Source: Saprospiraceae bacterium (lineage in GTDB: Bacteria; Bacteroidota; Bacteroidia; Chitinophagales; Saprospiraceae). From it: a stretch of 64,000 nt of DNA. Position 1 is the first letter of the stretch. Every line of letters starts with the position of its first letter. The notes beneath the pieces are model-generated. The model was not told where the DNA came from and ran no database searches. It saw nothing but the letters and a program-made list of their open reading frames with translations. The stretch is from positions 1 through 64,000 of the forward strand of contig JALSPK010000202.1 in the NCBI GenBank assembly GCA_026986005.1. Reading direction: 5' to 3'. A program made the translations under genes and the position numbers. Shown here one piece after another: positions 5,144-33,027 of the stretch.

Positions 5144-5229
5144 AATCGAATTTGATGTTGTTTAATTCCAGTGTCTATACAAAAAACTCAATTTGCAATA
5201 GTCAAATTTTTATGCATTCACCACTGAAA

Positions 5230-5318: not shown

Positions 5319-5337
5319 TCATTAAAAAAATGTAAAG

Positions 5338-5390
5338 TATCGCAACAGGCAAAATATTTTGATAAAATATTTCTTTTTTTTGCCTCGATA
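5338..5390 (-). terminator. Long hairpin just past trxA stop
   Basis: An inner stem of nine pairs (5352-5360 with 5364-5372, loop GAT) is enclosed by AGGCA/TGCCT and TATCG/CGATA arms. It begins a few bases after the trxA stop, so it is best read as the trxA 3' end structure. There is no clean T-run on the minus strand after it. Confidence 0.5.
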
Positions 5391-5395
5391 CAGTT

Positions 5396-5716
5396 TTAAG
5401 AGTTTAAAAGCGTCTCTACTTTTTCAAAAAATACGGATTTGGGAGCTGAACCTACGTGTTTCTCAACGACTTCTCCATTTTTTAGGAATAGTACTGTAGG
5501 AATACTTCTGATACCGTATTCTATAGCTGTATCAGGATTATTGTCAACATCTAATTTTCCAACTTTTACTCCATCAAATTTTTCACCAATTTCTTCAATT
5601 ATTGGTCCAATCATTTTACAAGGTCCACACCATACTGCCCAAAAATCGACAACGGTTAATCCTTTATAATTGATAATTTCTTCTTTGAAATTTGCATCAG
5701 TTAGTTCTAACGCCAT
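5396..5716 (-). CDS. trxA: Thioredoxin
   Basis: This cytosolic disulfide reductase donates electrons to ribonucleotide reductase, peroxiredoxins and others. It is a single 106-residue thioredoxin domain. The active-site WCGPC lies at about residues 29-33 after VVDFWAVW, the cis-proline segment IRSIPTV near 70-76, and the conserved GxxP-type C-terminal helix is present. Length and all key residues match canonical thioredoxin 1. It has no signal peptide. metG lies upstream on the same strand with 113 bases between. Confidence 0.97.
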   Translation of the reverse strand: MALELTDANFKEEIINYKGLTVVDFWAVWCGPCKMIGPIIEEIGEKFDGVKVGKLDVDNNPDTAIEYGIRSIPTVLFLKNGEVVEKHVGSAPKSVFFEKVETLLNS

Positions 5717-5820
5717 AGTATTTAAAATTTATAAGTTTAAAAATATTTACAACTAGTCAAACAGATTACTTGATGAATTTATTATATAAATATCGCAAAA
5801 AGATTATATTCATAATTTTT

Positions 5821-5832
5821 GGACAGGCACTA
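5821..5832 (+). repeat. Partial copy of the dispersed motif at metG 3' end
   Basis: GGACAGGCACTA matches the 3' half of the motif at 59741-59759. It overlaps the metG stop codon (read on the minus strand), so this copy lies exactly at a gene end. Confidence 0.4.
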
Positions 5833-7995
5833 ATTAACCATGCTGCCATTTTCTAATTCCACGTCAGTATTTATAAAACTTAGTTTCCCCTGACTATCTT
5901 CTGCCATAAGAATCATTCCTTGTGATTTTACACCTCTAATTTTTCTTGGCTCAAGATTTGCTAATAGGATTACTTTTTTTCCGATTATTTGATCCGGAGA
6001 ATATTGAGCTGCTATGCCGGATGCCACCGTTCTTTCACAGTCTCCAAGATCAATAATGAGTTTTAATAATTTATCTGCTTTCTTTATCTTTTCCGCTGAC
6101 TTTATCGTGCCTGTTCTCAAATCAAGTTTGGTAAAGTCTTCAAAATTAATTTGTTTTTTATATGCTTTGTTTGAAGTATCTTTTTTTTCATTATCTGAAG
6201 AAATTGTAGCTGTTTTTTCATCCTTTTGACTTTTTTTAAGCTTTTCTATTTGGGCTTCTATTACATCGTCTTCTATTTTTGAGAAAAGATGTGCAGGTTT
6301 ATTTATTTTATGACCTGTTTCTAACGGCAATTCCCCAAGAGCCAATTCATCCAATAACTCCAAAAGCTCACCTTTACCCTCAATCTCAGGAAGTACTAAT
6401 AATTTTCTGAGTTTGGCAGAAGTAAAAGGCATGAAAACATAGGAAGCTATTGATAAAACATTTACTATTTGAAGTGCTAAATTCATTATTGCTTTTACGC
6501 TTTCAGGATCTTCTTTTATCAATTTCCATGGCTCATTGAACTGCAATAATTGATTTCCTTTTGCAGATATGTTCATCAGAGTTTTTAATGCTGCTCTAAA
6601 CTCGTATTTTCTTAAATAGGAGTTTAGATACTGTAACTCATCGTGAAGTGATAGCATTTCGGTTTCATGAAATCCACCAAAATCTTCATCCCAAACCCCC
6701 TTGAACATGCTGTCTTGGTCAAATTCCGGTACTAAACCATTGTAATACTTATTGGTCAATACAACAACTCTGTTTACAAAATTACCTATATTATTTACGA
6801 GTTCATTGTTATTGGTCTCTTGAAAATTTTTCCATGTAAACTCACTATCCTTATGTTCCGGCATGTTTTTTATGAGATTATATCTCAATTCATCAATATT
6901 TTGAGGAAAATCTTCAATGTATTCATTTACCCATACGGCCCAATTTCGAGAAGTTGAGATTTTATTTCCTTCTAGGTTCATAAATTGATTTGCAGGAACA
7001 TTGATTGGAAGAATATAATTCTCTTTAGCTTTTAATATTGCAGGAAATATCAGACAATGAAATACTATATTGTCTTTACCTATGAAATGAATCAAAGCCG
7101 TATCGTCATTTTGCCAATATGACTTCCAATCGGTATCGTTCTTCTCTGCCCAATACTTCGTAGCAGAAATGTAACCGATTGGCGCATCCATCCAAACGTA
7201 TAACTTTTTGCCTTCTGAGTCTTTTATTTCGTGTGGAACATCTACGCCCCAGTCCAAATCCCTAGTCATAGCTCTAGGTTGTAATCCACCATCTAGCCAT
7301 GATTTGCATTGCCCTATTACGTGATTTTTCCATTTTGATACATCGTGATGATATTTTTCGTCCAATTTTCCTTCTACAATGAAATCATTCAACCAATTCT
7401 CGTATTTATTTAAAGGAAGATACCAGTGTTTGGTTTTCTTTAGTATTGGTTTTTCCTGAGTCAAAGTAGAAATTGGATTGATCAATTCCAAAGGGCTCAA
7501 TGTCGATCCACAGTTTTCACATTGATCACCATACGCTTCAGTATGACCACATTTTGGACATGTTCCGGTGATGTATCTATCAGCTAGGAATTGTTTAGCT
7601 TTCTCATCGTAATACTGTTCTGAATCAATCTCTTGAAATATTCCTTTATTATATAGATCTAAGAAAAACTCTTGTGCAGTCTCTTTATGTAATTCTGAGG
7701 ATGTGCGGTGATAAATATCAAATGATATTCCCATTTTTTCAAATGCTTCGGAAAATTGGGCATGATATTTATCTATTATTTCCTGTGGCTTGATGCCTTC
7801 CTTCTTGGCTCTCATCGTAATCGCAGCTCCGTTCTCATCAGAACCACAAACAAAAACTACATCCTTGTTCATCATTCTGAGAAACCTCACAAATATGTCC
7901 GCACTTAGATAGGCACCCGATAAGTGACCTATATGCAGTGGACCATTTGCATAAGGTAAGGCAGATGTTATTAAATATCGTTCCGGATTTAACAC
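5830..7995 (-). CDS. metG: Methionine--tRNA ligase with C-terminal tRNA-binding domain
   Basis: It charges tRNA-Met for initiation and elongation. The 721-residue protein starts at GTG 7995, which places LITSALPYANGPLHIGH at the N-terminus as in homologues. The HIGH box is at residues 21-24, and the zinc knuckle CPKCG...CENCG near 145-165. The KMSKS-equivalent reads KISTS near 343, a form normal in this phylum. The anticodon domain follows, then a charged linker. A C-terminal EMAP/Trbp111-like OB fold starts at about residue 615 (LDLRTGTI) and promotes dimerisation and tRNA binding. A TATCTTTG box lies 48 bases upstream. Confidence 0.97.
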   Translation of the reverse strand: MLNPERYLITSALPYANGPLHIGHLSGAYLSADIFVRFLRMMNKDVVFVCGSDENGAAITMRAKKEGIKPQEIIDKYHAQFSEAFEKMGISFDIYHRTSSELHKETAQEFFLDLYNKGIFQEIDSEQYYDEKAKQFLADRYITGTCPKCGHTEAYGDQCENCGSTLSPLELINPISTLTQEKPILKKTKHWYLPLNKYENWLNDFIVEGKLDEKYHHDVSKWKNHVIGQCKSWLDGGLQPRAMTRDLDWGVDVPHEIKDSEGKKLYVWMDAPIGYISATKYWAEKNDTDWKSYWQNDDTALIHFIGKDNIVFHCLIFPAILKAKENYILPINVPANQFMNLEGNKISTSRNWAVWVNEYIEDFPQNIDELRYNLIKNMPEHKDSEFTWKNFQETNNNELVNNIGNFVNRVVVLTNKYYNGLVPEFDQDSMFKGVWDEDFGGFHETEMLSLHDELQYLNSYLRKYEFRAALKTLMNISAKGNQLLQFNEPWKLIKEDPESVKAIMNLALQIVNVLSIASYVFMPFTSAKLRKLLVLPEIEGKGELLELLDELALGELPLETGHKINKPAHLFSKIEDDVIEAQIEKLKKSQKDEKTATISSDNEKKDTSNKAYKKQINFEDFTKLDLRTGTIKSAEKIKKADKLLKLIIDLGDCERTVASGIAAQYSPDQIIGKKVILLANLEPRKIRGVKSQGMILMAEDSQGKLSFINTDVELENGSMVN

Positions 7996-8043
7996 AATTG
8001 TTCTTTTTTAATTATAATTATTTAAAGATTAAATTACAATTTG

Positions 8044-8051
8044 CAAAGATA
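8044..8051 (-). promoter_or_regulatory. Probable -7 box of metG
   Basis: On the minus strand the sequence reads TATCTTTG, an exact TAnnTTTG match, about 48 bases before the metG GTG. No TTG is found at the right upstream spacing, so confidence is moderate. Confidence 0.45.
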
Positions 8052-8095
8052 TATATATTATTTTAAACTATGTGTTTTTATCTGAATAATATATT

Positions 8096-8129
8096 AAAAA
8101 AGCCTTGATTTTTTTATCAAGGCTTTTTT
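8096..8129 (-). terminator. Rho-independent terminator of the T9SS cargo gene
   Basis: The A-run and GCCTTGAT arm (8102-8109) pair with ATCAAGGC (8116-8123), flanked by A6 and T6 tracts, so it can act in both directions. It lies between metG and the gene ending at 8151 on the minus strand. Confidence 0.85.
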
Positions 8130-8150
8130 ATATATTATTTTTATTGTGTT

Positions 8151-9104
8151 TTAATCAATAAACACTTTTTTAGTAATTATTTTATTGTTATTGGCGATTT
8201 GTATAACAGCGATTCCTGAATAATTAGTGCTGATGGGCAAGTTAATTGAATTCATCCCGGTAGTTACATCGTAATTTTGATTGTAAATATTTTGTCCTGT
8301 TATGCTTATGATTTTAATATCAAGTGATTCCGCAATAAATGAAGCGATGTCAAGATGAATATTATTATTGCTATAATAAGCATTGTTGACACCAAAATCC
8401 AATAAATTATCTGTTCTGGTTGATAATGTAATTATATCAGAATACGTGTAAGCACCATCCAAATCTGTTTGCTTCAATCTAAAATAAAGAAATGGATATC
8501 TTTTAAGTTTTTCATTTAATGACATTTTAAACTCATAGTCTTGAAGATCTCTGCTTTCTCCTGCTCCCTTTATATCAGTAACTGATTCGAAATCTTCCCC
8601 ATTTAGAGACATCTCAACAGTAAAATAGTCAAAATTTATTTCAGAAAGAGTTGACCAGTTTAAATTCACAATATCACCTTTGTTTTCTGCTGTAAATGAT
8701 TTTAGTTCAATCGGAACTGTTGAGTATGAATTTGACTCAACTTGTACACATCCATTTGTATTGCCTGTGGCTTTAGCTCCAATACTAATGGAATTTACAG
8801 GACCAGCTACAAATGTAACTTTTATACAGTAAGAACTGGAAAATGTGTTTCCCGCACCCAAAGCTTCCCAAACCGCGTTTGTTCCATCTGCAGTAAAATT
8901 CACAAAATAGTCTTCCCATGTAGCTTTTTCGTTTTCCGGTAAACCGGTAGCGGTATAGTCCTTGAAACATAATATTACACTGTACGTTTCTCCTGCAACA
9001 TAATCTGCAGTCTCGGGATTGAATGTAATGTCGCAACTTTGCGAATTAGCAGTAAAAGTAAACAAAATGCTTAAGAATAATAAAAATAGTAATAATTTTT
9101 TCAT
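8151..9104 (-). CDS. Secreted protein with T9SS C-terminal sorting domain
   Basis: This 317-residue protein is probably exported by Sec and then released or attached at the surface by T9SS. It has a clear signal peptide (MKKLLLFLLFLSILFTFTANS). An N-terminal beta-sandwich with several cysteines (residues 22-125) is followed by VPIELKSFTAENKGDIVNLNWST, the fibronectin-like segment commonly placed before sorting tails. The last 80 residues form a type A sorting domain ending IAVIQIANNNKIITKKVFID. No catalytic motif is seen, so its role on the surface is unknown. It has a well-matched promoter and a strong terminator, so it is a single-gene unit. Confidence 0.85.
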   Translation of the reverse strand: MKKLLLFLLFLSILFTFTANSQSCDITFNPETADYVAGETYSVILCFKDYTATGLPENEKATWEDYFVNFTADGTNAVWEALGAGNTFSSSYCIKVTFVAGPVNSISIGAKATGNTNGCVQVESNSYSTVPIELKSFTAENKGDIVNLNWSTLSEINFDYFTVEMSLNGEDFESVTDIKGAGESRDLQDYEFKMSLNEKLKRYPFLYFRLKQTDLDGAYTYSDIITLSTRTDNLLDFGVNNAYYSNNNIHLDIASFIAESLDIKIISITGQNIYNQNYDVTTGMNSINLPISTNYSGIAVIQIANNNKIITKKVFID

Positions 9105-9450
9105 TTCAGTTCGATTTTAATATTATTTAATGGTTGTTGTGTTAAAGCTGATGTAACCTTAACAAACACAAAGGTATGTAAAATGTTTTTGAAAGTCAAG
9201 TAAACAATAAAGAAAAATCAAAAAAAACGTTGTTTTTTTATGAATTATACGAAAAAAAATGATTTATAAGGGGTTTTTTATCAGATACCTTGACGGATTT
9301 GTTTAAAAAATTATAACTTTTAGCGAATATTATATAATGAGTTTTGTCGTTTGTGCGTTTTTTGTTTTGAAAATATATAATGGATTCAGTTAATTGTACT
9401 ATATTGCATTTTTATTAAATAATAGAGTTATGGTAAATGAACACACTTTT
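9105..9450. other. 346-base divergent intergenic region
   Basis: It holds the minus-strand promoter at 9169-9199 and the upstream region of the propeller-protease gene. The rest is AT-rich, with homopolymer runs of A and T around 9210-9250. No further gene or clear hairpin is seen. Confidence 0.5.
9169..9199 (-). promoter_or_regulatory. Bacteroidota-type promoter for the T9SS cargo gene
   Basis: On the minus strand, TTG (9197-9199), a 20-base spacer and TACCTTTG (9169-9176) fit the TTG-N19-21-TAnnTTTG consensus of the primary sigma factor in this phylum. The start codon is about 65 bases downstream. Confidence 0.7.
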
Positions 9451-12400
9451 ATGTCAAAATCTTTTTTGTTTTTTATATTGATCTTTTTTGCAATTATTGT
9501 GGATATGAGTGCACAGGGTTTTGGAAGAAATAAGCCAAAATATAGGAATTTTAATTTCAAAGTAAAAGAAACACCTAATTTTGATTTGTATTATTATATG
9601 GACAATGGATACAAGATTAATGAAGAGGGGCAATTTGCAGAACTTTGGTATAGATTGCATCAAGCCATCTTCCGAGATACTTTTTTAGAAAAAAACCCAA
9701 TTCTTTTATATAATAATCATGCGGATTTTCAACAAACAAATGCGATAGGAGGATCTATTGGTATAGGTACAGGTGGTGTTACCGAAGCTTTTAAAAATAG
9801 AGTAGTTATTCCGGTTTCTTTTACAAACCAACAGGATTTTCATGTGTTGGGTCATGAGTTAGTTCATGCTTTTCAGTATAATGCTATAATCAATGGTGAT
9901 TCTACTTCATTGAGGTCACTGCAGAATATTCCTTTATGGATGGTTGAAGGGATGGCAGAGTATTTGTCTAAAGGCAGAAATGATGCATATACTTCAATGT
10001 GGATGAGAGATGCTGTTTTTAATGATGATATTCCGAATATCAGACACTTGAATGATCCAAAGTATTTTCCATATAGATATGGGCAGGCATTTTGGTCATT
10101 TATAGCCGGAACATATGGTGATGAAGCGATAAAGCCGCTTTTTGTTAATACAGCATTATATGGACTTCAAATTGCTATTGATTCTACTTTGCACACCGGT
10201 TATAAGGAGTTGAGTGAAAAATGGGTAAGTTCGCTAAAAAATTACTATTCAAATTTTATAAAATATTCAAAGGAAAAGACAGTTGGGAGAAAAGTCGTGT
10301 CTAGTAAAAATGCCGGTAAGATGAATGTGTCGCCATCCATCAGTCCGAATGGAAAATATATGATTTTCATATCGGAAAAAGATGTTTTTACCACGGATTG
10401 GTATTTGGCAAAAACCAATACCGGAAAAATCATTAGAAAGTTGTCCAGCAAAGTGAAAGACGCACATATAGATAACTACAATTTTTTAGAATCATCAGGT
10501 ACATGGTCACCTAACAGTAAAAAATTTGCATTTGTTGCCTTTAAAAAAGGAAAGAATATTCTGGTTTTAAAAGAACCGAAGTCCGGAAAAACTTTGGATG
10601 AAATAAAAATAAACAATCTTAGAGCATTTACTAATCCTGTATGGTCTCCGGATGGTAAATATATTGTGTTGACCGGACTGGTTGAAGGGCAGGTTGATTT
10701 ATACGCGTATTATTTCAAATCAAAAAGGTTGAAACGATTAACAAATGACAGGTATTCTGAAATTCATGCAGATTTTTCTCTAGATGGTCGGAAGCTTGTA
10801 TTTGCCACAGATGCTATAAGTATAAAAGAAGGCAGAACTCATGGAAAATGGGTGATGAATATTGCTGTGCTTGATGTAAAGTCGGGGAGTAAATCAAATT
10901 TGCCGATATTCAAAGGTGCAGATAACCTTAATCCCGTTTTTGACAAGGATGATAATATCTATTTCCTTTCGAATAGGGATGGTTTTAGGAATATGTATAT
11001 GTATGAAAAAGAATCCGGTAAAGTATATCAGAAAACCGACTTTGTGGTTGGGATTAGTGGTATTACCGAGTACTCTCCTGCTATTTCGATTGCAAAGAAA
11101 AAAGGGAGGATTTTATATACACTATATAATAATAGGACATATTCTATTTATCAATCAAAATTCGATAAATTTCTAAATAAAGAAGTGGCTATTGATGATG
11201 TCGATATGAGAGCAGGTACTTTGCCAAAACCAAATAAACTGGCTACGGATGTGGTGAATGCAAATCTTGATAAGATAGGGCATTTAGGTTTGGTAAGTGT
11301 GGCGAAGTTTGAAGATAGAAGGTATAGGCCTAGATTTAAACTGGATTATATTGGGGGCGGAACATCTGTAGGTGTAGGTAGCTCGTCTTTTAGTACTTAC
11401 ACGGGATTGGCAGGAGGTATAGATTTATTATTTAGCGATATGTTGGGCAATCATCAATTGTATTCGCGGTTGTCAATGAATGGGGAGATTTATGATTTTG
11501 GAGGACAATTGATGTATATAAACCGGCAGAATAGAATCAATTGGGGGGTGGGATTGTCCCACGTTCCATATTCAACAGGATATCGTAAAGGAGAAAGTGG
11601 GTATGCTCTCCCAATCCAAGGAGATACAATTATAGTGGATAGAATTACAACAAATATTTTAAGGGTTTTTGATGAAAGTCTGAATGGGTTTTGGCAGTAT
11701 CCATTTTCGACAACACTGAGGATTGAAGGTGGTGTGACGGGAGGATATAGAAGTTTCAGGCAAGATAAAATTTATGATTATTATCAGGCATATCCATATG
11801 GTTATATCGGTAGGGGGGAGAGAGAAAGGGTTGATGTGCCGGATACGTTACCTTTTAGTCAGTATTTTCGATTGATTAAAGGTTTTAGCTCAAGTGTGAA
11901 TCTTGCTGTAGTAGGAGATAATTCGTATAATGGGGTCACATCTCCGCTAGCCGGATATAAATATAGAGTAAGCATAGAAAAGCATTTTGGAACAGATGAT
12001 TATCAAAGTATATTGGGAGACTTTAGGTATTATTATTGGATAAAACCCGTCAGTTTGGCTATAAGAGGAATGTCGTATTTGAGGTTTGAGAACAATGTGA
12101 ATTCTGTTTACCCATTTTATATTGGACAGATGGGAATGGTAAGAGGATATAGCTTCGGTTTTGGCTCCAATCCGGTATTGGATAATTTGAGTTACTTGGA
12201 TCATATGCTAGGTTCAAAAATAATTATGGGTAATTTTGAGGTTAGATTGCCGTTTACGGGGGTTGAAAGGTTGGCATTGATAAAATCCAAATATTTTTTA
12301 AGCGATTTAGCAGTGTTTGCTGATATCGGAGTGGCTTTTGATGAGTTTAGCCATTTTAAAGATGGCGAACCTGTTAGTGTCAATGGACAATTAAAGTATA

Positions 12401-12543
12401 TTAAGCCAAAAATAGCAAAAAGTGTAGGAGTTTCATTGAGAGTGAATTTGTTTGGTGCAATGGTAGTTGAGCCTTATTTGGCATATCCGTTGGAGGATAA
12501 AAGCAAGTTGATTTTTGGTCTTAACTTCATGCCGGGGTTTTAG
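9451..12543 (+). CDS. Gluzincin-like metalloprotease with beta-propeller and outer-membrane barrel
   Basis: The signal peptide MSKSFLFFILIFFAIIVDMSAQ argues for the ATG at 9451; the frame is open back to a TTG at 9394 and an ATG at 9430. The N-terminal domain resembles the peptidase MA family, with HELVH at residues 135-139 and a third zinc ligand in VEG (E166), so it could be catalytic. Residues of about 285-560 contain PD40/TolB-type propeller blades (SPNGKYMIF, WSPDGKYIV, FSLDGRKLVF). The last 400 residues are beta-strand rich, like a surface-antigen barrel, ending in F. The substrate is unknown. A relative with a lost protease site is encoded at 29830-33027. Confidence 0.75.
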   Translation: MSKSFLFFILIFFAIIVDMSAQGFGRNKPKYRNFNFKVKETPNFDLYYYMDNGYKINEEGQFAELWYRLHQAIFRDTFLEKNPILLYNNHADFQQTNAIGGSIGIGTGGVTEAFKNRVVIPVSFTNQQDFHVLGHELVHAFQYNAIINGDSTSLRSLQNIPLWMVEGMAEYLSKGRNDAYTSMWMRDAVFNDDIPNIRHLNDPKYFPYRYGQAFWSFIAGTYGDEAIKPLFVNTALYGLQIAIDSTLHTGYKELSEKWVSSLKNYYSNFIKYSKEKTVGRKVVSSKNAGKMNVSPSISPNGKYMIFISEKDVFTTDWYLAKTNTGKIIRKLSSKVKDAHIDNYNFLESSGTWSPNSKKFAFVAFKKGKNILVLKEPKSGKTLDEIKINNLRAFTNPVWSPDGKYIVLTGLVEGQVDLYAYYFKSKRLKRLTNDRYSEIHADFSLDGRKLVFATDAISIKEGRTHGKWVMNIAVLDVKSGSKSNLPIFKGADNLNPVFDKDDNIYFLSNRDGFRNMYMYEKESGKVYQKTDFVVGISGITEYSPAISIAKKKGRILYTLYNNRTYSIYQSKFDKFLNKEVAIDDVDMRAGTLPKPNKLATDVVNANLDKIGHLGLVSVAKFEDRRYRPRFKLDYIGGGTSVGVGSSSFSTYTGLAGGIDLLFSDMLGNHQLYSRLSMNGEIYDFGGQLMYINRQNRINWGVGLSHVPYSTGYRKGESGYALPIQGDTIIVDRITTNILRVFDESLNGFWQYPFSTTLRIEGGVTGGYRSFRQDKIYDYYQAYPYGYIGRGERERVDVPDTLPFSQYFRLIKGFSSSVNLAVVGDNSYNGVTSPLAGYKYRVSIEKHFGTDDYQSILGDFRYYYWIKPVSLAIRGMSYLRFENNVNSVYPFYIGQMGMVRGYSFGFGSNPVLDNLSYLDHMLGSKIIMGNFEVRLPFTGVERLALIKSKYFLSDLAVFADIGVAFDEFSHFKDGEPVSVNGQLKYIKPKIAKSVGVSLRVNLFGAMVVEPYLAYPLEDKSKLIFGLNFMPGF

Positions 12544-16168: not shown

Positions 16169-16978
16169 TTATTTCCAAAGTTTAAATTTTCTTTCAATAA
16201 CGCTATAATGATTACCTGAGCCAAATCTTTTGTCAAATAGAATTATACCAAAAGAAAAGAAATCCAATGTTAATTTTATAGAATCTGATTTTTTAATTTC
16301 TTCCCAAGCATTTTCCATTCCTTTTGACCAATGGATATCGTCAAAAACCATGATGGTATGATTTGTGGATTTCTTTAAAATCTGTTGAAAGTACTTTATT
16401 GTAGCCTCCTTTTTATGGTTTCCGTCTATAAAAGCAAAGTCAATTTCTTTCATGTTTTTTAATAAAATCGGCAAAGTATTGTCAAAATCACCGTAAACTA
16501 GCTTAATGTTTTTAAGCCTGAGTTTAGCAAAATTCTCCATGGCTATTGATGCAACTGCTTCAGATCCTTCCAAAGTTGTTACTGTAGAACTAGGATTGCC
16601 TATAGCCAAATATGATGTAGATATCCCGAGTGAAGTTCCCAATTCCAAAATATTTTCAGGCATAAACTCATTTATCGTTTTATACAAAAGATGGCATTGC
16701 CATTTTGGAGACAAAGCAGAGTTTGCGATTGAGTTGATGCTTCTTATATTTTCTTTTGAGAAAGTAGATCCTGCCCCCAAATCTCTAATGTTGATTGTTC
16801 TGGAATCTCTTTTTAAAGTTTTTCTGATATTTTCAATCTCAGTTATTCTGTAATGTGAGTCATTTAATTCTAAAATATTATATATCAATTGAGATACATT
16901 TGAATTATCAAAATCTTTATATGTTTTTGCTTTGAAGTAAAACTTAAGCAATCGTGTCAATTTTATAATAATATTCAT
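16169..16978 (-). CDS. Class I SAM-dependent methyltransferase
   Basis: A 269-residue Rossmann-fold methyltransferase of the Methyltransf_24 / O-methyltransferase type. Motif I appears as NILELGTSLGISTSYLA near residues 110-126, the ribose-binding acidic strand as VTTLEGSEA near 135, and motif IV as EIDFAFIDGNHKKEAT near 180. The N-terminal 70 residues are helical and basic. It starts six bases after the giant adhesin gene, so the two are probably one transcript. Whether it modifies that adhesin, its glycan or a small molecule is unknown. Confidence 0.85.
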   Translation of the reverse strand: MNIIIKLTRLLKFYFKAKTYKDFDNSNVSQLIYNILELNDSHYRITEIENIRKTLKRDSRTINIRDLGAGSTFSKENIRSINSIANSALSPKWQCHLLYKTINEFMPENILELGTSLGISTSYLAIGNPSSTVTTLEGSEAVASIAMENFAKLRLKNIKLVYGDFDNTLPILLKNMKEIDFAFIDGNHKKEATIKYFQQILKKSTNHTIMVFDDIHWSKGMENAWEEIKKSDSIKLTLDFFSFGIILFDKRFGSGNHYSVIERKFKLWK

Positions 16979-16984
16979 AATATG

Positions 16985-19900
16985 TCAATGCAAAACCAGT
17001 ACCCTTTCAAAATAGTGGCTTTTATTATTCAAAATATGCAGAATGTATATACCATTACTGTAATCTTGTAAGGGTAACCAAACTTTGTTGGCAGTAATAT
17101 ATTTATATGCAACTGAAATCTTCATTCCAGCTAAATCCATAAGTTCAATATTGTACTTAAATTTTTCATCCTTCATAAAGGTGATAAATAAGCCCTTACT
17201 TGTCGGGTTAGGAAATATTTTAATGTCTGAATTAGAAATCGTGGAAATGGAACTTGTGGTTTCAGCGATAAAAACCTTTATCTCTTTGAGGCATTCATTG
17301 TAATCTGTTAGTGTTACAGTATACCAGCCGGATTTTAAATTAACCGCTTTATTGCCTGTTTGAAAATTGGTCTTATCATCCCATAAGAATGTATATGGAG
17401 TAACACCACCTGAAGGTAATATTATGGCATAGCCATCAGCTTTGTCCTTGTGTGCCGGATATGACTCTATCGTGACTTTTATTTCATTTGGTTGATTTAT
17501 CTTTATATCCCCTGTACTTATTTTGCAATTATTTGAGTCTGTTATTTCTGCATCATAGATGCCGGCAAATAATTTTTTAACATTAAATTCATTTGAGCCA
17601 TTACTCCATAGAATAGAGTAGGGGAGAACTCCCCCCGATGAGCTAACATTGATTTCTCCCGTCTTATCCCCAAAGCATAAGATATTTTCTGTATTTATCT
17701 CATTAATTACTAATTTTTCCGGTTGAGTTAACATAACGGTTTTGCTTTTACCTACGCATCCTAAGTTATCCGTTACAGTTACAGTATAATTTCCTACAGG
17801 TAAATAGATAAGCGTATCAGATTTGTCATTTTTTATTATTTTAGATCCTGCACTCCAATTGAAATCAAAGGGAGCATTTTTCGAATCAGCCGTCACAGAT
17901 ATGATGCCTGAAGAGTCACCAAAACATTTTATATTTTCTAATGAAGACAGATTAACTTTTAATGGAATATTCAAATTTGATATTTCCAAATTTGTTAGTA
18001 CTTGTTTACACGCTAAGTCATCTTCAACCGTGATGCTATAAATACCGGTATTGAGACTGTCTATTGTATTTGAAATGTTATTTCCATTGCTCCAGTAATA
18101 ATAATAATCTCCATATCCGCCTTGTGCATTTACCGATAATAAACCATCATTTGTACCTGAGCAATTTACATTTTTCAATGAGTCTAGTTTTATGTTAAGA
18201 CTATCAATAGTTGTGATTTCAATATCCTCTAGTGTTTTTGTGCATCCATTATTGTCACTTGCTATAATAGTATATTTTCCTGTTTCCAGATTATATATAT
18301 CATCATGTCTACTTATGGTTTTATCGCCTTGTTTCCATTCAAAAGTATATGGAGATGTTCCTCCTTTGGTATCAATTTCAATCAATCCGTTATTCTCACC
18401 AAAACAGGTGACATGATCTATAGAGCTAATCAGTATACTCAAAGAGTCCGGTTGTTTTAATAGAATGGGACCATATTCTTGATAACACAAATCGCTATCT
18501 GTAATCGTACAAAAATATTCCCCTGATTCTAAGTTGGAGATGTCAGTCGAGTCTTTATTTGTTTTGTCCCAATCGATACTATATGGAGGAGTTCCTCCCA
18601 TTACTCTCAAACTTATCTTCCCGTTTTTCAAGCCATAACAAGAAGGATTGACTTTTTCTAATAATCCGATGTCAAATGTTGTTGTCGCTTTAAGTTCAAT
18701 GTTTGTAGAAATGTACTTGCAACCGATAGAGTCTATTATAGTTATATTATAGTTGCCGGCATTAATGCCTGATATGTTTTGTGTAGTGTCACCATTGCTC
18801 CAAGTGTATTTGTAAGGAGATACGCCACCGGACAAGTCGATATTTATTTGACCATCGTTTTTGCCGCTACAAGTTGGTTGTGTCTTGTCAATCACTTCAA
18901 AATTAAAAATATCGTTAAAGCCGATATCAAATGTGTCAGAAACTAAGCCACATCCTGATTGGTCTGTTATTTTGCACCAATATTTACCGGCTTGTACATT
19001 TGTTAATATGCTATCAATGCTTCCATTTGACCACTGAAAAGAAAATGGCGGATATCCTCCTAAAATTTTTAAACTAACCTTTCCGTCACGGCTTCCGTTG
19101 CACGATTCGGGAAAAATGCTGTCTACTTCGATCGAAAACGGGGATTCGATTTCAGAATCATCATCCATTCCATTACAATTTTCATCTATGAAATTGCATC
19201 TTATTTCTTCAGCACCGGGATTGATCGATGCATTGGTGTCATCGCAGTCATCACTATTTGACACATAGTTGTCTCTAGTCAAATTACAAAAGAATACTCC
19301 AGTTGTGTCTTTCCCATAGCCATCGCCATCTCTATCGGGAAAGTATAAATAAGAATCTTCGTCTGCAATGACAGAATTGAAAAATATAATATCGTCAATC
19401 GCAATATCTCCATAACTTCCATTGTTCAATGATCGGGCTACGAATCTAAATTGGCATGTGTTTTGTTCGTATTTATCTAGGGGAATCTCCTGTTTTATCC
19501 ATTTATTTATACTTTCTTCATGTCTGAAAAATAATGTATCCCAAGTACTTCCGTTGTCAATACTTACTTCAAAACTTAAAGCACCAACATCTACACCATA
19601 CATATAGTAAGAGAATTGCATGCTACATCCATCAAATGCCGGCTCTACATAAATACATTCGGACTGTAAAATAGCAAGGCCTTGATTGTCGCAGTCACTA
19701 TTTGAGCTTTCGAAATATATGTATTTACCATTTCCATAAACATCATCTTGTGGGCCTGTGTTTTTAGTTGTCGTTTCGCCTGAATTTACAAGCCAGTTTT
19801 GTTCTGAATTATTGTACCAGATACTGTTGTTTAAACAGTCTTCGCAACTTGATTTGCAGTTCTCAAAAGAATCAAATCCTTCGCGTAGTTGTGCTGTACC

Positions 19901-21034
19901 ACACAGGAATGAAACAGAATCAAGGCAGGTGAATGTTGATATGTTGTTTTCGCACTTTGACTGTAAAGAAATAAAAATCGTATCATTGTTATTAAGACCT
20001 GAGACAATTTTGAATCCGGTATCCTCACTTTTAATAATATTACTTTTTCCGTTGGTGACCAAATTGAAAACCATGGAATCTACTGCTTCATTTTGTTGCC
20101 AATTTATCAAAATAGCATTTTCATTTTGAGGGATAATACTGACTTTTTGTGGAAGAGGACAAAGTAAAGGCTCAAAATCAATTTCAAAAAATTCGAGATA
20201 GCCTGAATTAGCAATTGACTTATCAATTATCTCCAATTTCCAGTCACCGATAGGAGAAATACTATCATAGAGAGAATATATTTCTTCATCCGGTTTGAAT
20301 TCACCAATTAATTGACTTGTTTGTTTAGATAATTTTTCACACGCTTCATCTGAAAATATAATTGGTTCTAGGCAATCAATTAAAGTAGAATTTCCATATC
20401 CGCTACTTTCATCTTTAGCTTTGTGAGATGAAGCTAATGTTGTTGATTTTCCATTTGGTGACCATAATTTAATGGTCAAATCATTTGTCCAAGAGTGATC
20501 TATAATTAATTTTATATTTTGTATAAAAACATTTTCACCAAGCTTGCCTTCCGGAAATTCTTCGTTTTTTATAAAAAAATAAGTTTTTCCCGGAATTGTT
20601 TTATTATTATTGCTGACGGCATCTTGAAGCTTCAAATGCATATTACATGTTGAAGGGTTTTGAAGATGAGTAATAAAGGAATATTCAAAGGACCATTTGC
20701 TCTCAGAGTCATCACTACATAAAGTTTGTATTTTGAAATAATATTTTGTGCTTGGCTCAAGACCTGATATACGATATTCTTTTTTGTTTATGAGAGATGA
20801 TACATTTGTGTCGTTGTAATCATCATTTGCTCTTCTCCATTTAATTTTCCAGGCGACTCCGTTAGAATCATTTTTCCAATTAATAGTTGTAAAATCGATA
20901 CCTGCTTCTGTGATTTTTATGTTTGTAGGCGGTTTGCACGCAGATAGTATGTCATTATATTGGTCTCCTGTAGCGAAACCATTAGTTACTGCGATTGACA
21001 AAAGAAAAAGGATGTATTTAAAATTATGCAACAT
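16985..21034 (-). CDS. Giant T9SS-secreted adhesin with SprB repeats
   Basis: This 1349-residue surface protein has, in order: a signal peptide (1-22); fibronectin III (about 33-122); a proprotein-convertase P-like beta-sandwich (128-292); a second FnIII-like segment; a cysteine-rich MAM-like domain (386-555); a MopE-type metal-binding block (563-623, DRDGDGYG then DCDD and NCNGMDDD); and eight tandem SprB repeats (about 633-1262). The repeats share C-x-G-xxxG ... GGxxPYxxxWSNG ... GxYxxxITD; the eighth lacks the cysteine. A T9SS tail occupies 1268-1349 (IFPNPTSKG onward). SprB repeats are known from the gliding adhesin of F. johnsoniae. No catalytic site is seen, so adhesion is inferred. It is divergent from an OmpA protein that also has an SprB repeat. 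Confidence 0.88.
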   Translation of the reverse strand: MLHNFKYILFLLSIAVTNGFATGDQYNDILSACKPPTNIKITEAGIDFTTINWKNDSNGVAWKIKWRRANDDYNDTNVSSLINKKEYRISGLEPSTKYYFKIQTLCSDDSESKWSFEYSFITHLQNPSTCNMHLKLQDAVSNNNKTIPGKTYFFIKNEEFPEGKLGENVFIQNIKLIIDHSWTNDLTIKLWSPNGKSTTLASSHKAKDESSGYGNSTLIDCLEPIIFSDEACEKLSKQTSQLIGEFKPDEEIYSLYDSISPIGDWKLEIIDKSIANSGYLEFFEIDFEPLLCPLPQKVSIIPQNENAILINWQQNEAVDSMVFNLVTNGKSNIIKSEDTGFKIVSGLNNNDTIFISLQSKCENNISTFTCLDSVSFLCGTAQLREGFDSFENCKSSCEDCLNNSIWYNNSEQNWLVNSGETTTKNTGPQDDVYGNGKYIYFESSNSDCDNQGLAILQSECIYVEPAFDGCSMQFSYYMYGVDVGALSFEVSIDNGSTWDTLFFRHEESINKWIKQEIPLDKYEQNTCQFRFVARSLNNGSYGDIAIDDIIFFNSVIADEDSYLYFPDRDGDGYGKDTTGVFFCNLTRDNYVSNSDDCDDTNASINPGAEEIRCNFIDENCNGMDDDSEIESPFSIEVDSIFPESCNGSRDGKVSLKILGGYPPFSFQWSNGSIDSILTNVQAGKYWCKITDQSGCGLVSDTFDIGFNDIFNFEVIDKTQPTCSGKNDGQINIDLSGGVSPYKYTWSNGDTTQNISGINAGNYNITIIDSIGCKYISTNIELKATTTFDIGLLEKVNPSCYGLKNGKISLRVMGGTPPYSIDWDKTNKDSTDISNLESGEYFCTITDSDLCYQEYGPILLKQPDSLSILISSIDHVTCFGENNGLIEIDTKGGTSPYTFEWKQGDKTISRHDDIYNLETGKYTIIASDNNGCTKTLEDIEITTIDSLNIKLDSLKNVNCSGTNDGLLSVNAQGGYGDYYYYWSNGNNISNTIDSLNTGIYSITVEDDLACKQVLTNLEISNLNIPLKVNLSSLENIKCFGDSSGIISVTADSKNAPFDFNWSAGSKIIKNDKSDTLIYLPVGNYTVTVTDNLGCVGKSKTVMLTQPEKLVINEINTENILCFGDKTGEINVSSSGGVLPYSILWSNGSNEFNVKKLFAGIYDAEITDSNNCKISTGDIKINQPNEIKVTIESYPAHKDKADGYAIILPSGGVTPYTFLWDDKTNFQTGNKAVNLKSGWYTVTLTDYNECLKEIKVFIAETTSSISTISNSDIKIFPNPTSKGLFITFMKDEKFKYNIELMDLAGMKISVAYKYITANKVWLPLQDYSNGIYILHILNNKSHYFERVLVLH

Positions 21035-21206
21035 GAACCTTGTTTTAAAATAATTAAACGAATTTATGCAATTTATTACTATTGGTGTAATATTGATGCA
21101 TTATTTTTGAATAATGATTCAAATTATTGTGATTTTTTTTCAATTGTTTGGATATAGGCGAGGACAAATGCAATATTTGAGAATTAATTAATGTTTGTAT
21201 TATTGT

Positions 21207-21235
21207 TTGATATATCAAATATTAATGTATATTTG
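21207..21235 (+). promoter_or_regulatory. Probable promoter of the propeller-OmpA gene
   Basis: TTG (21207-21209), an 18-base spacer and TATATTTG (21228-21235) match the phylum's promoter pattern, with a slightly short spacer. The ATG at 21273 is 37 bases downstream, which argues against the longer reading frame that begins at 21195. Confidence 0.6.
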
Positions 21236-21272
21236 CTTTAATTATTTGTATAAAATTGAAATCCTATATAAT

Positions 21273-23057
21273 ATGTTTAATTTAAAAAATGTTTTTACAC
21301 TAGTATTAGCTTTGGTGGTTTTAGTCGGGACTGCTCAAAGAAAATATGACCTTAACCATTATGAAGGCTTACCGTCAAAAATCAATATTCATGATATTGA
21401 GTTGAATGATGGACTTAGTGCTTATTTAGCTTCTGATAGAGGTTTGTTTTTTATTTCATCTGTTGGTGTTGAAGCTAGAAATGTCGTTCCGCAAAAGGAC
21501 ATTAATGCCATTTCTGAAATTGATGGCAGTAAATTTTATGTGGGAGGAGGAAATGAATTTGCATCTTCAATGAATCTTGGTAAATTTATTTCTTTTGGTA
21601 ATAAAAGCGTTAAAGTAAATTGTTTGCAAATTTATAAGAATGATTTGTGGATTGGAACTAATGATGGGATATATGTTATCAATAAAAAGAGGAATAATGT
21701 AAAAAATCATTACATTCCCGGTAATTCTAAATTGAAATCAAAGGATATAAACTTTATCTTCAAGGATAGAAAGGATGTGCTGTGGGTTGGAACAAAAAAT
21801 GGTATTGTGATTATTGATGACAAGAAATGGAGTATTGAGGAGAAGTCACATTCAATGGAAGGTATATTTGAAAATTCAGAGGGTTTGTGGCTGTTGAGCA
21901 ATAAGGAACTTTGGAATATTGATAATTTTGGTAGGTTAAATAGATGGTATAGGATTAATTTAAAGAAGGATCTAAAAAAGGGAATTGTAAACGATTTAGT
22001 GTTGGATAGTAGAGGAAGATTAATTATAGCATCTGATATTCTTGTTAGGTTTGATCCTGTGACTGATAAAGTAGAAAAATATGGAAAAGATTTGGGGCTG
22101 GTCGCAAAAAATTGTACAGCTATTGCTATAGATCGTGAGGATAGAGTGTGGATTGGAACCAAAGATGACGGGCTGTTTACGGTAGGTTTTAAAGATCATT
22201 ATAAGAAAACCGATAAAGATTTACCTTTGGAATTTGTGATGATAAGTAAATCGCCAAGTTGTTCGCAAGGTGATGATGGTAGTATAAAAGTAATTGTCAA
22301 AGGAGGCAGAAAACCATATGACTTTAAATGGTCAACCGGAGATATTGAAGTGAAAAAAATTGAGAATTTGGTAGCCGGCAATTATTCGGTAACGATTACA
22401 GATGCAAAAGGGATGTCTGCAACAAAAGATATTGTACTTGTTGAACCGGATCCGCTTTCATTAAAAATTGAAAGTATTGTCAACAATTTAACCGGAGGTG
22501 GTAGTGTCGTTACATTTAATATTGAAGGAGGAACTCCCGGATATCGTTTGGATATTGACGGATATTCATATGACAATCCTGCTAAAAATGTAGGTGCAGG
22601 AGATCACTCAGCTAAAGCGGTTGATGTATTTGGCTGTGAGGCATTTGTTGATTTTAATGTCAAAGGTAATAAGATTATTTCTGGATTGGATGCTTCCAAT
22701 ATAAAAGTAGGTCAGGTGGTTAGAATAAATAATCTATATTTTCAGGCTGACTCGACGGATATAACGCCGAAATCAAAACCTGTATTGGATGAAATATATT
22801 TGTTTTTGCAGGAGAATGTCGGTATAATCGTGGAGATAGGGGGGCATACTAACAATATTCCATCTGATGAGTATTGTGACAGATTATCGACAGCAAGAGC
22901 GAAACATGTAGCTGAATATCTGATAAAGAGGGGGGTAGATAAAAGCAGAGTGTCGTTTAAAGGATATGGTAAACGCAAGCCAATCGCATCCAATTCAACC
23001 ACTGCAGGAAGAAAGAGAAATCAACGTGTTGAAATGAAAATCCTAAGCATTAAGTAA
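21273..23057 (+). CDS. Beta-propeller / SprB-repeat / OmpA-domain protein
   Basis: The chosen ATG 21273 gives a signal peptide (MFNLKNVFTLVLALVVLVGTAQ) and a 594-residue protein. Residues of about 25-315 contain two-component-regulator-type propeller repeats (DLWIGTNDGIYVI, DVLWVGTKNGIVII, DRVWIGTKDDGLFTV). One SprB-like repeat follows at about 326-397 (CSQGDDGSIKV...GGRKPYDFKWSTGD). The C-terminal 115 residues are an OmpA/MotB peptidoglycan-binding domain (YFQADSTDI...GGHTNN...LSTARAKHVAEYL...KGYGKRKP). It should be periplasmic or outer-membrane associated and tethered to the wall. It is divergent from the giant SprB adhesin and precedes a barrel gene by 28 bases. Confidence 0.82.
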   Translation: MFNLKNVFTLVLALVVLVGTAQRKYDLNHYEGLPSKINIHDIELNDGLSAYLASDRGLFFISSVGVEARNVVPQKDINAISEIDGSKFYVGGGNEFASSMNLGKFISFGNKSVKVNCLQIYKNDLWIGTNDGIYVINKKRNNVKNHYIPGNSKLKSKDINFIFKDRKDVLWVGTKNGIVIIDDKKWSIEEKSHSMEGIFENSEGLWLLSNKELWNIDNFGRLNRWYRINLKKDLKKGIVNDLVLDSRGRLIIASDILVRFDPVTDKVEKYGKDLGLVAKNCTAIAIDREDRVWIGTKDDGLFTVGFKDHYKKTDKDLPLEFVMISKSPSCSQGDDGSIKVIVKGGRKPYDFKWSTGDIEVKKIENLVAGNYSVTITDAKGMSATKDIVLVEPDPLSLKIESIVNNLTGGGSVVTFNIEGGTPGYRLDIDGYSYDNPAKNVGAGDHSAKAVDVFGCEAFVDFNVKGNKIISGLDASNIKVGQVVRINNLYFQADSTDITPKSKPVLDEIYLFLQENVGIIVEIGGHTNNIPSDEYCDRLSTARAKHVAEYLIKRGVDKSRVSFKGYGKRKPIASNSTTAGRKRNQRVEMKILSIK

Positions 23058-23085
23058 TATTATTTATTTTAAAAAGCAGGAGAAG

Positions 23086-23862
23086 ATGAAGATGATTTTT
23101 ATGGGTTTGTTATTGTTCGCTTTTGCTGTGCCTGTTCTTTCTCAGGTAGGAGAAGTTGATTCTCTTTATGTCGATTCATTGGGGTATTATGAAGCTGATG
23201 ATTTTTATGAAAATGATGATGTCGACGAAACTGAAAGTTCAGGGTATCTTGGTGAGATTGGACTTGTTTTCGGAAATCCTTTTGGGCAAATGAAGAAGCG
23301 ATTTGAGAAGACATTTTTTGGATATGATTTTGGATTGTACAAGCAGTTTGATAAAACGATCCCTCTATATGTTGGTGCAGGTTTTTTTATTATGGGTTAT
23401 GATTCTGAGTCGGTTGATTATTTTGATTACGGTCAAGAAGATGGAGTGGAATATGAATTTAGGGATGAATTTAAAGGAAAGGTTTTTGGCTTCAATTTAG
23501 GGGCAAAATATTTTTCCAATCGAAGTTTATGGGTATTCAATCCTTATGTGCAATTGGATATTGAATATCGTCGTGCTTATGCAGCAATAAATTATTATAA
23601 TGTAGACTTGGATGAGAGTATAAATACAGACTTTGAAGGTGGAAATTCAAGTTTAGGTTATGATTTGGGTTTTGGTAGTATTATTAACGTAAATTCAGAT
23701 AAGTTTTATTTGGATTTTAGGGTCTCTTATTGCTTAGGAGGTGGATTATTTCTATACATAAGAAATACTACTTCTTCTGGAATATATGTCACAGATTATT
23801 TTGATAAAAAGTATATCCCGATCAGTTATGGTACAATTAAAATTGGCGTTACATTTTTTTAA
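23086..23862 (+). CDS. Predicted outer-membrane beta-barrel protein
   Basis: This 258-residue protein has a signal peptide (MKMIFMGLLLFAFAVPVLS). A highly acidic segment (residues 22-48, rich in D, E and Y) is followed by about eight to ten amphipathic strands, ending IGVTFF with a terminal aromatic as in outer-membrane barrels. It has one of the few visible Shine-Dalgarno sites here (AGGAGA just before ATG 23086). It lies directly after the propeller-OmpA gene, so it is likely co-expressed and may be its membrane partner. I recognise no named family. Confidence 0.65.
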   Translation: MKMIFMGLLLFAFAVPVLSQVGEVDSLYVDSLGYYEADDFYENDDVDETESSGYLGEIGLVFGNPFGQMKKRFEKTFFGYDFGLYKQFDKTIPLYVGAGFFIMGYDSESVDYFDYGQEDGVEYEFRDEFKGKVFGFNLGAKYFSNRSLWVFNPYVQLDIEYRRAYAAINYYNVDLDESINTDFEGGNSSLGYDLGFGSIINVNSDKFYLDFRVSYCLGGGLFLYIRNTTSSGIYVTDYFDKKYIPISYGTIKIGVTFF

Positions 23863-29829: not shown

Positions 29830-32800
29830 TTAGAAATCATGCCCAATTGAAAAGTATAAGATAGGTTTTCTTATTTTTCTAGTTTCAATTCCCCAACCAT
29901 AATCCAGCTTTAGGAAATAACCAAAAAGAGTACTTCTGACTCCAAAACCATATCCTGCTATTAATGGATCTGAATAGTATAGAAGTTTTAACTTGATTGT
30001 TGGAGGTACTTCAATATATTTGATATTTGAAGTGTTTTCTTTTGAAAAAGGAGAAATTCCATTCCAGGTCATTCCTGCATCCAAGAAGAAATTTAATTGG
30101 AAGTCACGCAAAAACGGTTTGTTAGAATTAATAAAATACTTTATAATTGGAATTCGGAGCTCACTACTAAAAATAGCAAATGAAGAGCCACTTTTTGCAT
30201 TATATCCAAAACCTCTAAGGTTGGCAGCTAATATTTTATATGCTATTTTTTCGTTTTTAATAGCTTGAACTTCATTTTCGTATTTAGAAAATTGCCAGTT
30301 TTCTATTCCTCCCAAAAAATAAATGTTACTTTCACTACCAAATGAAGTTTGACCTGCTGCTCTAAAAGCTAGAACACTATGGTTGATTATTTTGAAATAA
30401 TGTCTAAAATCATAGCCCAAAACTGTCATAAATCCTTTAGAAAGTGAAAATTTATTATTGCTATTCAAACTGAAGTTGAATTTGTTGTAAACTTCCATAA
30501 AAATCTTGCTTCTGTTGCCTTCCAAAAGATTTATTCCAATTCTGCTAGTATTGTCAAATATGTATTCGAACTTTAGGCTAATTCTTTGTTCTTTGTTGCT
30601 ATTATCGTTTAGAGATATCGTATCCGAAGCATAGAGATTTATTTTATCAATTCGTAGGTTTGCTGCCATGCTGATGCTTTTGAATACACTAAAAGGATAT
30701 TTGGCTCTTACTCTAAATAAATTGGAAGTAGTATTGTATTTGTCAATTATGTTTTGTCTTAAATATTTGTATTTTTTATTTGATTTTCTATAATATACAT
30801 ATTGCCAGTCAACTTGATGTCTTAGATTTTCAAATACTGAAAAATATTCTTTTTCGTTGAAATCCGGCGATATTCTTAAGCCAGTTTCAATAAAATAATC
30901 TTCGAACATATCTTTAATTAGAACCTTTGATAGTATTCCGGCTTTTGGTGGGGTGTAATTTGCTTCGTCTTCTGTATAAATGGATAATCCTTCAAACAAT
31001 GGTTCGTTGTCTAATCTGGTTGTAAATTTAGAAAAGGAAAACTTTAATCTTGATGCAATTGCGTGAGAGGAGATATATCTTTTATAAGTGTGTTTTTTGT
31101 ACTTTTGTGATATTTTATTTGGCATATTATTTTTTAGGTTACTATTGAATTTAGACTGGAACAATAAGCCTTTTTCTATCTCTAAAGGTTCAACATCTTT
31201 AATAGTTTTCTTGTCTTGTATTTTATTATTTTTAATAAAAAATGTCGGCTTTGGCATATATTTTTTATGCTTTTCATAAGGCTTTGTACTTATTGAATTG
31301 TAACAAATATTATTTTCACTATAAGTGACCCTTTTATTTGTTGGAAATATATTGAATATATTGAAATTATTGTTTGTTGAGAAAGTTGATTTATGACTAT
31401 TGAGATTATTTATTTTTATATTAGTTATTCCTGTTTCATCAGTTTTGTAAATTAAATTATCATCTATTAAATATGGAAAGGTTTCGTTGATTTCCGGTGT
31501 TGAAGTAAAACGTTTTATGTTTTTTAGTGTAATATTGAGAAAGAATATATCAAATTTTGATGTTGGTAAAATTGTATCGACATTTTCCCTTTTTAGAGTT
31601 GTATCAATTCTGTTTGAAGAAAATAAAATGCCTCTCTTATTCTTGTAGGTGACGGTTTTTATGTCGCGTTCCACCCAAAAGTCATCTGTGATTTGTTTTA
31701 TATTTCTTTTGTTGATATCAAACTTGAATAAATCTATATTTCCGTTTACTATTGCACTTACTATAATGTTTTCATTGTCCCATATGTCAAAACTTTGAAT
31801 GGATTTAATCTTTAAAGGTAATGGTTTATTATATAATACTTCTTTACTTTTATAATTGACTATTTTTAGATATGAAACATCTCTAAGTTTATAAATAAAT
31901 GCGATTTTATTTGAAGAAGGGAAAAAGCTAAATATTGGATAATTAAAATCTGATATTTGTTCCTTATTAATGTATCCGGAAGAATACAGTGTCGTCTTGA
32001 TACCTCTTTTCAAATTAATTAGATTTAGTTCTTTTTTCCCATATTTATCACTACTGTAAGCCAAATATTTATTACTATCATTTATTTTGACAGATGGGTA
32101 AACCGTGTTATTATTATTGGAAGTGATTATCTTGTTTTTGCTTTTATCTGTTTTTGAATTTATTTCACTTAACTCATTACTGTAAATTTTGATATAATAT
32201 TGATACCATTCGTTATACAGGATACCAATTGATTTACCTGTCGTGTTTTTTATTGAATTGTTTAGATTTCGCGTAATCCTAAGAAGATAAAATAAGTCAG
32301 ATATTATATTGTATTTGTTGGTTATAAAATTGAAAAATGATTTTCCCGCTAGTTTTGGCATTTTTTGTGCTAAATACTTGAATTTTGCCTTTTTGTTTTT
32401 GCTACTAATGATAAATTGCCTTAACCTAGCGTCTGATTGGATATCCCATTTGTTTGAAAGATAAGCTGCCGCCCCTTTTGTGAACCAGTCCGGGATTTTA
32501 TTGCTAATTAAATTGTTGTATACATTTTCAATAGAGATATTCGAAAACATATTCTTAAGGAAAATAGCGGCTGTACCTTCCCGTATTTGATTCAGTAAAT
32601 GTGAAAAATCACCATCAAAGTATATTATTATTTTATTATCAATGGTTTTTGATGAGCCGGTTTCATTTGTTGAAAATTCATTTTTAATGCCAAGATTTGT
32701 TTGATTGAAATCTCCTATATCTGAATAAATAATGATTTTTATTTTCTTATTAATCTTAAAGTCCAAAATATCTTCAATATCTGTATATGAAGCCTGCGAT

Positions 32801-33027
32801 AATAGAATAACGGACTTCGCTAAATTCAATTCTTTGGTATACCAATATATCGAATAATTTTCAGTGTCATAAAGCCACCAGTTGTTGAAATCTTGGCTGT
32901 ACTGAACTCTATTTTTACCGAATTTAGTGTATATAGTTTGACCTTCAATTTTATATGTGTTAAAACTGATTGAAATCACTAAAACAATATAAATAATATA
33001 GTGTTTATTTTTATGTTTCTTTAGCAT
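29830..33027 (-). CDS. TolB-like propeller/outer-membrane barrel protein with non-catalytic protease-like domain
   Basis: The 1065 residues follow the same plan as the protein at 9451-12543: a signal-anchor-like start, a peptidase MA-like domain, PD40-type propeller repeats, and a C-terminal barrel ending FSIGHDF. In place of HExxH it reads IREGTAAIFL (about residue 145), and the later VEG glutamate is replaced in WFTKGAAAYL. No zinc site remains. It is lysine-, asparagine- and isoleucine-rich and more AT-biased than most neighbours. The REG form may characterise a Bacteroidota subfamily rather than recent decay. A structural or chaperone-like envelope role is inferred. Confidence 0.65.
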   Translation of the reverse strand: MLKKHKNKHYIIYIVLVISISFNTYKIEGQTIYTKFGKNRVQYSQDFNNWWLYDTENYSIYWYTKELNLAKSVILLSQASYTDIEDILDFKINKKIKIIIYSDIGDFNQTNLGIKNEFSTNETGSSKTIDNKIIIYFDGDFSHLLNQIREGTAAIFLKNMFSNISIENVYNNLISNKIPDWFTKGAAAYLSNKWDIQSDARLRQFIISSKNKKAKFKYLAQKMPKLAGKSFFNFITNKYNIISDLFYLLRITRNLNNSIKNTTGKSIGILYNEWYQYYIKIYSNELSEINSKTDKSKNKIITSNNNNTVYPSVKINDSNKYLAYSSDKYGKKELNLINLKRGIKTTLYSSGYINKEQISDFNYPIFSFFPSSNKIAFIYKLRDVSYLKIVNYKSKEVLYNKPLPLKIKSIQSFDIWDNENIIVSAIVNGNIDLFKFDINKRNIKQITDDFWVERDIKTVTYKNKRGILFSSNRIDTTLKRENVDTILPTSKFDIFFLNITLKNIKRFTSTPEINETFPYLIDDNLIYKTDETGITNIKINNLNSHKSTFSTNNNFNIFNIFPTNKRVTYSENNICYNSISTKPYEKHKKYMPKPTFFIKNNKIQDKKTIKDVEPLEIEKGLLFQSKFNSNLKNNMPNKISQKYKKHTYKRYISSHAIASRLKFSFSKFTTRLDNEPLFEGLSIYTEDEANYTPPKAGILSKVLIKDMFEDYFIETGLRISPDFNEKEYFSVFENLRHQVDWQYVYYRKSNKKYKYLRQNIIDKYNTTSNLFRVRAKYPFSVFKSISMAANLRIDKINLYASDTISLNDNSNKEQRISLKFEYIFDNTSRIGINLLEGNRSKIFMEVYNKFNFSLNSNNKFSLSKGFMTVLGYDFRHYFKIINHSVLAFRAAGQTSFGSESNIYFLGGIENWQFSKYENEVQAIKNEKIAYKILAANLRGFGYNAKSGSSFAIFSSELRIPIIKYFINSNKPFLRDFQLNFFLDAGMTWNGISPFSKENTSNIKYIEVPPTIKLKLLYYSDPLIAGYGFGVRSTLFGYFLKLDYGWGIETRKIRKPILYFSIGHDF

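Follow-up and report, generated by a model that had tools for sequence, protein, structure and literature searches.

A stretch of 64,000 nucleotides from a Saprospiraceae bacterium (hereafter the window) contains two divergent genes, one for a giant T9SS protein and one for a protein that joins a beta-propeller to an OmpA domain, and the products of both carry SprB repeats. Such repeats are familiar from secreted T9SS adhesins. The original prediction was that the two proteins form a matched surface module, an adhesin with a periplasmic or outer-membrane receptor or sensor; a predicted barrel gene follows. Are the giant and the OmpA protein in fact partners, or are they neighbours that have a type of domain in common?

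Domain make-up of the divergent proteins

The ORFs, coordinates and strands first assigned to the locus were correct (Table 1). The plus-strand reading frame starts at a TTG (21195), and use of the ATG at 21273 yields a good signal peptide and a protein of 594 aa. The control region between the two genes, predicted at 238 bases, does have this length in the window but ranges from 238 to ~640 bp across the genus, where the best conserved block adjoins the giant. An orthologue of the methyltransferase adjoins the giant in the genus wherever the contig reaches. As an operon partner of the giant, the methyltransferase is closer than the OmpA gene. Elsewhere in the window, two long proteins (9394-12543, plus strand; 29830-33027, minus strand) look like paralogues by eye; the former contains an HELVH motif, which the latter does not.

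Table 1. Features of the divergent locus, in window positions.
Feature	Position	Strand	Remarks
T9SS type A cargo ("giant"), 1349 aa	16985..21034	-	fn3, P_proprotein, MAM, MopE, 8 SprB repeats, C-terminal sorting domain
Divergent intergenic region, 238 bp	21035..21272	.	Conserved block near giant's start
Propeller-SprB-SprB-OmpA protein, 594 aa	21273..23057	+	Signal peptide, no lipobox
Single 7-blade Reg_prop-type beta-propeller, residues 23-313	21339..22211	+	
SprB domain type A, residues 319-394	22227..22454	+	N-side Cys330 only
SprB domain type B, residues 395-464, degenerate in genus	22455..22664	+	C-side Cys455 only
OmpA domain	22737..23021	+	N527/C535/R542 where PorE has D576/N584/R591
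258-aa genus-restricted strand-rich protein, possible outer-membrane barrel, no known family	23086..23862	+	
SAM-dependent methyltransferase	16169..16978	-	6-bp gap behind giant, same strand

The giant is T9SS type A cargo, with a C-terminus that matched the type A tail profiles TIGR04183 (41.4 bits) and PF18962 (58.8 bits). The eight SprB repeats originally counted in it were recovered by a Pfam profile search, in which PF13573 matched eight stretches (232 bits). Both cysteines of the repeat are kept in 63 of the 72 repeats of the giant and its orthologues. Outside the genus, full-length orthologues were found in four genomes (G006, G011, G021 and G036; 32-36% identity). Within the genus, identity to the window's copy is 48-65% for the giant and 65-82% for the OmpA protein, so the giant diverges faster.

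In the 594-aa OmpA protein, Pfam recognised OmpA (82.5 bits), Reg_prop (46.4 bits) and a single stretch of SprB (34.8 bits, above the curated PF13573 cut-off of 28 bits). The SprB segment scored 58.5 bits against a profile made from the giant's own eight repeats, so that an unrelated Ig fold can be dismissed. Thus, the SprB-like repeat expected between the propeller and the OmpA domain is indeed SprB, but there are two such domains rather than one. Residues 395-464, which follow the first, scored 8.2 bits against the giant's repeats and 24.6 bits against a profile of orthologous second repeats, and have a similar strand order in the structural model. The second repeat is a clear SprB domain in most orthologues and is eroded in the genus and in a sister lineage (UBA2365, L168). 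On profile and model together, residues 395-464 are, as we read them, a second, degenerate SprB domain.

The AlphaFold model of the OmpA protein (mean pLDDT 84) shows a propeller over residues 23-313, followed by a pair of Ig-like domains and an OmpA domain; that the propeller has seven blades is our own reading of the model's strand list. By Foldseek and a profile search, the propeller head is closest among solved structures to the propellers of HTCS sensors, e.g. BT4663, and then to PorZ. In VIA-align the propeller matched BT3049 with Z 27.3 and 3.1 Å over 287 residues; as all rows fell on the propeller and many unrelated propellers were tied, the fold is uninformative about function. A Sec signal peptide without a lipobox was read from the sequence, and no T9SS tail was found in the propeller-SprB-OmpA proteins.

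The predicted barrel gene downstream is real and conserved in the genus, with only weak matches outside it. However, a comparison with Pfam and NCBIfam, up to E 10 and over four orthologues, gave zero family matches for the 258-aa protein, and its model was poor (pLDDT 48), so that the barrel is purely a reading of its strand pattern.

Paired SprB repeats in a Saprospiraceae family

Proteins of the form propeller-(SprB)n-OmpA were found at 79 loci in named genomes. They occur in at least 70 genomes, most of which carry the label Saprospiraceae, and full-architecture orthologues occur in more than 20 genera of that family. The original prediction described SprB repeats as known from secreted adhesins but not known from OmpA-type anchors. 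Among the papers searched, none was found to report SprB repeats together with OmpA. The combination is a feature of the whole family and not peculiar to the pair: it is widespread in Saprospiraceae and apparently unremarked. A phylum-wide architecture found no support: among the matches listed for 296 genomes the clear ones for SprB-OmpA came only from its own family, though rare cases elsewhere may exist.

Complete members of the family have 2, 4, 6, 12 or 14 repeats, and the number was even in all 12 of those with at least four. In the window's clade the profile still recognises only the first of two. The repeats alternate in two types, A and B, with an identity of 35.6% between repeats of the same parity versus 26.8%. 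In arrays of 4, 6, 12 and 14 repeats, every position was closer on average to the repeat of matching parity in the short proteins. Permutation within proteins showed the alternation to be significant in 7/7 arrays of at least 12 repeats (p < 0.004), while shorter arrays, which are too short for this test, had the same sign. Alternation as a trait of all SprB arrays was rejected, as it was absent in 14 of 15 SprB-rich T9SS proteins. The one that does alternate is a T9SS protein of the window's genome with 14 repeats (locus L068, G000:C172), which has two alternating repeat types without the cysteine split described below, both cysteines being kept. At the same locus (951-8524), genes for a Reg_prop histidine kinase and a response regulator lie tail to tail towards the gene for this protein.

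The A and B repeats of the OmpA family each keep a different cysteine. A repeats have the N-side cysteine only (124/126, the two exceptions having an extra cysteine off position), and B repeats have the C-side cysteine only (126/126). The split cysteines of the window protein, Cys330 and Cys455, are invariant in 22/22 orthologues. The simplest reading of this pattern is that each A-B pair probably contains one disulfide (Cys330-Cys455 in the window protein), which would also explain the growth of arrays by two. The split-cysteine pair is not unique to OmpA proteins, since it is also present in two secreted T9SS proteins of the window's genome (L076, 4026-5393; L077, 4418-6379). Both of these end in the pair, just before the T9SS tail, and are a possible source of the SprB pair of the OmpA family. 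A split-cysteine pair together with OmpA was also found in G160 and G254.

Likeness to PorE and the altered OmpA pocket

The order of domains in the OmpA protein is that of PorE (PG1058), a periplasmic T9SS lipoprotein in which a beta-propeller and an Ig-like domain precede a C-terminal OmpA domain. In contrast to PorE, the OmpA protein has neither a TPR match nor a lipobox Cys, its propeller is of the Reg_prop rather than the WD40 kind, and an SprB pair stands where PorE has a carboxypeptidase-regulatory-like fold. It scored 73.3 bits against NF052230 (PorE; cut-off 600), over the OmpA part only. The OmpA protein is built like PorE but is not PorE. PorE-like genes of the window's genome lie on contigs C64 and C197, below the curated cut-off. 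This genome has a T9SS (SprA, 2023 bits), including a true PorZ on C59 (483 bits); the OmpA protein reached 48.5 bits against NF052228 (PorZ; cut-off 260). HTCS sensors and PorZ share the Reg_prop type of propeller with it, but they have two propellers where it has one, and it lacks Y_Y_Y, a kinase and a T9SS tail. With the SprB-repeat T9SS adhesins (PF13573) it has the repeat family in common, above the Pfam cut-off; unlike them, it is not T9SS cargo, and its repeats form A-B pairs with one cysteine each where those of the adhesins mostly have two.

PorE binds peptidoglycan through Asp576, Asn584 and Arg591 (PMC7192894). Two of these three side chains are replaced in the OmpA protein: N527, C535 and R542 occupy the corresponding positions and are invariant in 22/22 orthologues, and N and C were found at the two altered positions in 76 of the 77 motifs of a wider set. 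A lineage-wide change in peptidoglycan is unlikely to be the cause, as most of the other OmpA domains read in the window's genome keep D/N/R, with one (C160) having N/C/R. Although the fold predicts that the OmpA domain likely serves as an anchor, the replacements in every aligned orthologue make wall binding only putative. On our preferred reading the altered pocket would still bind wall material, and its ligand may be a modified one or another altogether.

Gene neighbourhood and competing readings

We favour, with a probability of roughly 0.6, a reading in which the OmpA protein is a PorE-like periplasmic scaffold with a fixed SprB di-domain as spacer, and in which the adhesin is a separate protein and not the other half of a matched pair. 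The propeller head would bind a partner, the Ig-type SprB domains would act as the spacer and the OmpA domain would hold the protein at the cell wall, presumably in the periplasm. The A-B di-domain would be fixed, probably by a disulfide between the single cysteines of A and B, and arrays would have grown by whole di-domains to 2, 4, 6, 12 or 14 repeats. The adhesin would be a surface protein of the T9SS with SprB repeats of the ordinary kind. Its gene and the OmpA gene would have become neighbours in the genus, with the common repeat type coming from domain ancestry.

The idea that the two genes recently exchanged repeats was rejected. The first repeat of the OmpA protein is 28-36% identical to the repeats of the giant, the same as the giant's repeats are to each other, and its best score was with orthologous first repeats, at 81 bits versus 71.5 bits with giant repeats. 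Similarly, seven of the giant's eight repeats scored best with giant repeats, the eighth being almost tied. As the repeat of the OmpA protein clusters with those of its orthologues rather than with those of the giant, there is no sign of exchange.

The divergent pair and the barrel gene occur together in 5/5 genomes of the genus, in the order methyltransferase, giant, OmpA protein, barrel gene as far as contigs allow, and this core trio is intact even though two of the five have rearranged outer flanks. Such genus-wide linkage counts against reading the adhesin as a separate protein. Outside the genus, however, the expectation that the two genes are neighbours in related genomes did not hold: G006, G021 and G036 have orthologues of both on separate contigs, while G011 has an orthologue of the giant and OmpA-domain matches only, with no full OmpA protein.

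A search for a large SprB gene beside the OmpA-protein gene, as originally proposed, found few: at only 11 of the 79 loci in named genomes does a gene with at least two SprB repeats lie within ~6 kb. Three of the 11 are of the window's genus and one is a tandem case, but the other seven have a different SprB protein, a non-orthologous T9SS protein with a thioredoxin-like N-terminus encoded beyond ffh; these seven fall on two branches of the OmpA-protein tree. The thioredoxin-like protein adjoins ffh in several genomes (e.g. L213, 79-3669; L069, 1093-4272), and a relative is encoded on C37 of the window's genome (36% over 1058 aa). SprB matches number 52 in the window's genome and often more than 100 in other genomes of the family, so a few SprB neighbours are, in our own judgement, to be expected. 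The pairing of giant and OmpA genes is a local, genus-level arrangement, and a matched pair is unsupported beyond the genus.

Could the trio nevertheless be a functional module within the genus? The barrel would then hold the adhesin at the surface and the OmpA protein would tie the barrel to the wall, a proposal that we consider unlikely. There is a precedent: PorE, a propeller-OmpA protein, forms a complex with the T9SS protein PG1035 and the barrel PorP, and in F. johnsoniae six porP-like genes adjoin porE-like ones (PMC9143113). In the genus, too, an adhesin, a barrel and a propeller-OmpA protein are encoded together despite the rearranged flanks, and lineages elsewhere have different SprB-rich T9SS genes in the vicinity of the OmpA gene. 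However, the adhesin here has a tail of type A and not of type B, and PorP-like partners go with a class other than type A. No PorP/SprF match was found for the barrel, which is not recognisably PorP-like by sequence. It is also restricted to the genus. In genomes beyond the genus, the genes for the adhesin and the OmpA protein either lie apart or do not both occur.

It is likewise doubtful that the OmpA protein remodels the wall together with a secreted CHAP amidase/peptidase, a partner that the window's genus would have to do without. A CHAP gene (PF05257) was found directly upstream on the same strand at 25 of the 76 loci with enough upstream sequence, scattered across deep branches; at one of the 25 it is ~1.1 kb from the OmpA-protein gene. 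Usually ffh lies divergent beyond the CHAP gene, and the arrangement around ffh may be no more than a matter of inheritance. At four loci (L169, L176, L179 and L204) the linkage persists with no ffh in the flank. No other linkage that we found is as wide, yet many genomes lack it. No CHAP homologue was found in 5/5 genomes of the genus, the gene is present yet unlinked in G006, G022, G029 and G036, and G023 and G026 have CHAP without a full OmpA protein. Among the nearest solved relatives of the CHAP protein, moreover, are not only wall hydrolases but also trypanothione and glutathionylspermidine amidases.

A role as envelope sensor, in which the propeller would sense a glycan or wall fragment and signal to a partner, is highly improbable: although the Reg_prop-type propeller resembles HTCS sensor domains (e.g. 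that of BT4663) most closely, both structurally and by profile, the OmpA protein has one propeller rather than two, no Y_Y_Y domain, membrane helix or kinase was found in it, and no conserved signalling gene lies alongside.

The periplasmic scaffold that we prefer is harder to reconcile with the longest members of the family. By our own estimate, 12-14 Ig domains in a straight line would measure ~45-55 nm and exceed the usual periplasm, which counts against the scaffold reading. There is a slim chance that the 12- and 14-repeat members are instead wall-anchored stalks of disulfide-locked SprB di-domains that cross the outer membrane and carry the propeller at the surface. If so, they would form a surface fibre that is fixed to the wall and not secreted by the T9SS.

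The change in the OmpA pocket is fixed, and raises the question of what the ligand of a large OmpA subfamily is. The A-B pairs, with one cysteine in each repeat, offer a definite rule, simple to test, for the construction and lengthening of arrays. Throughout the family, the same repeat that is found in secreted adhesins is used in a putatively wall-anchored protein.
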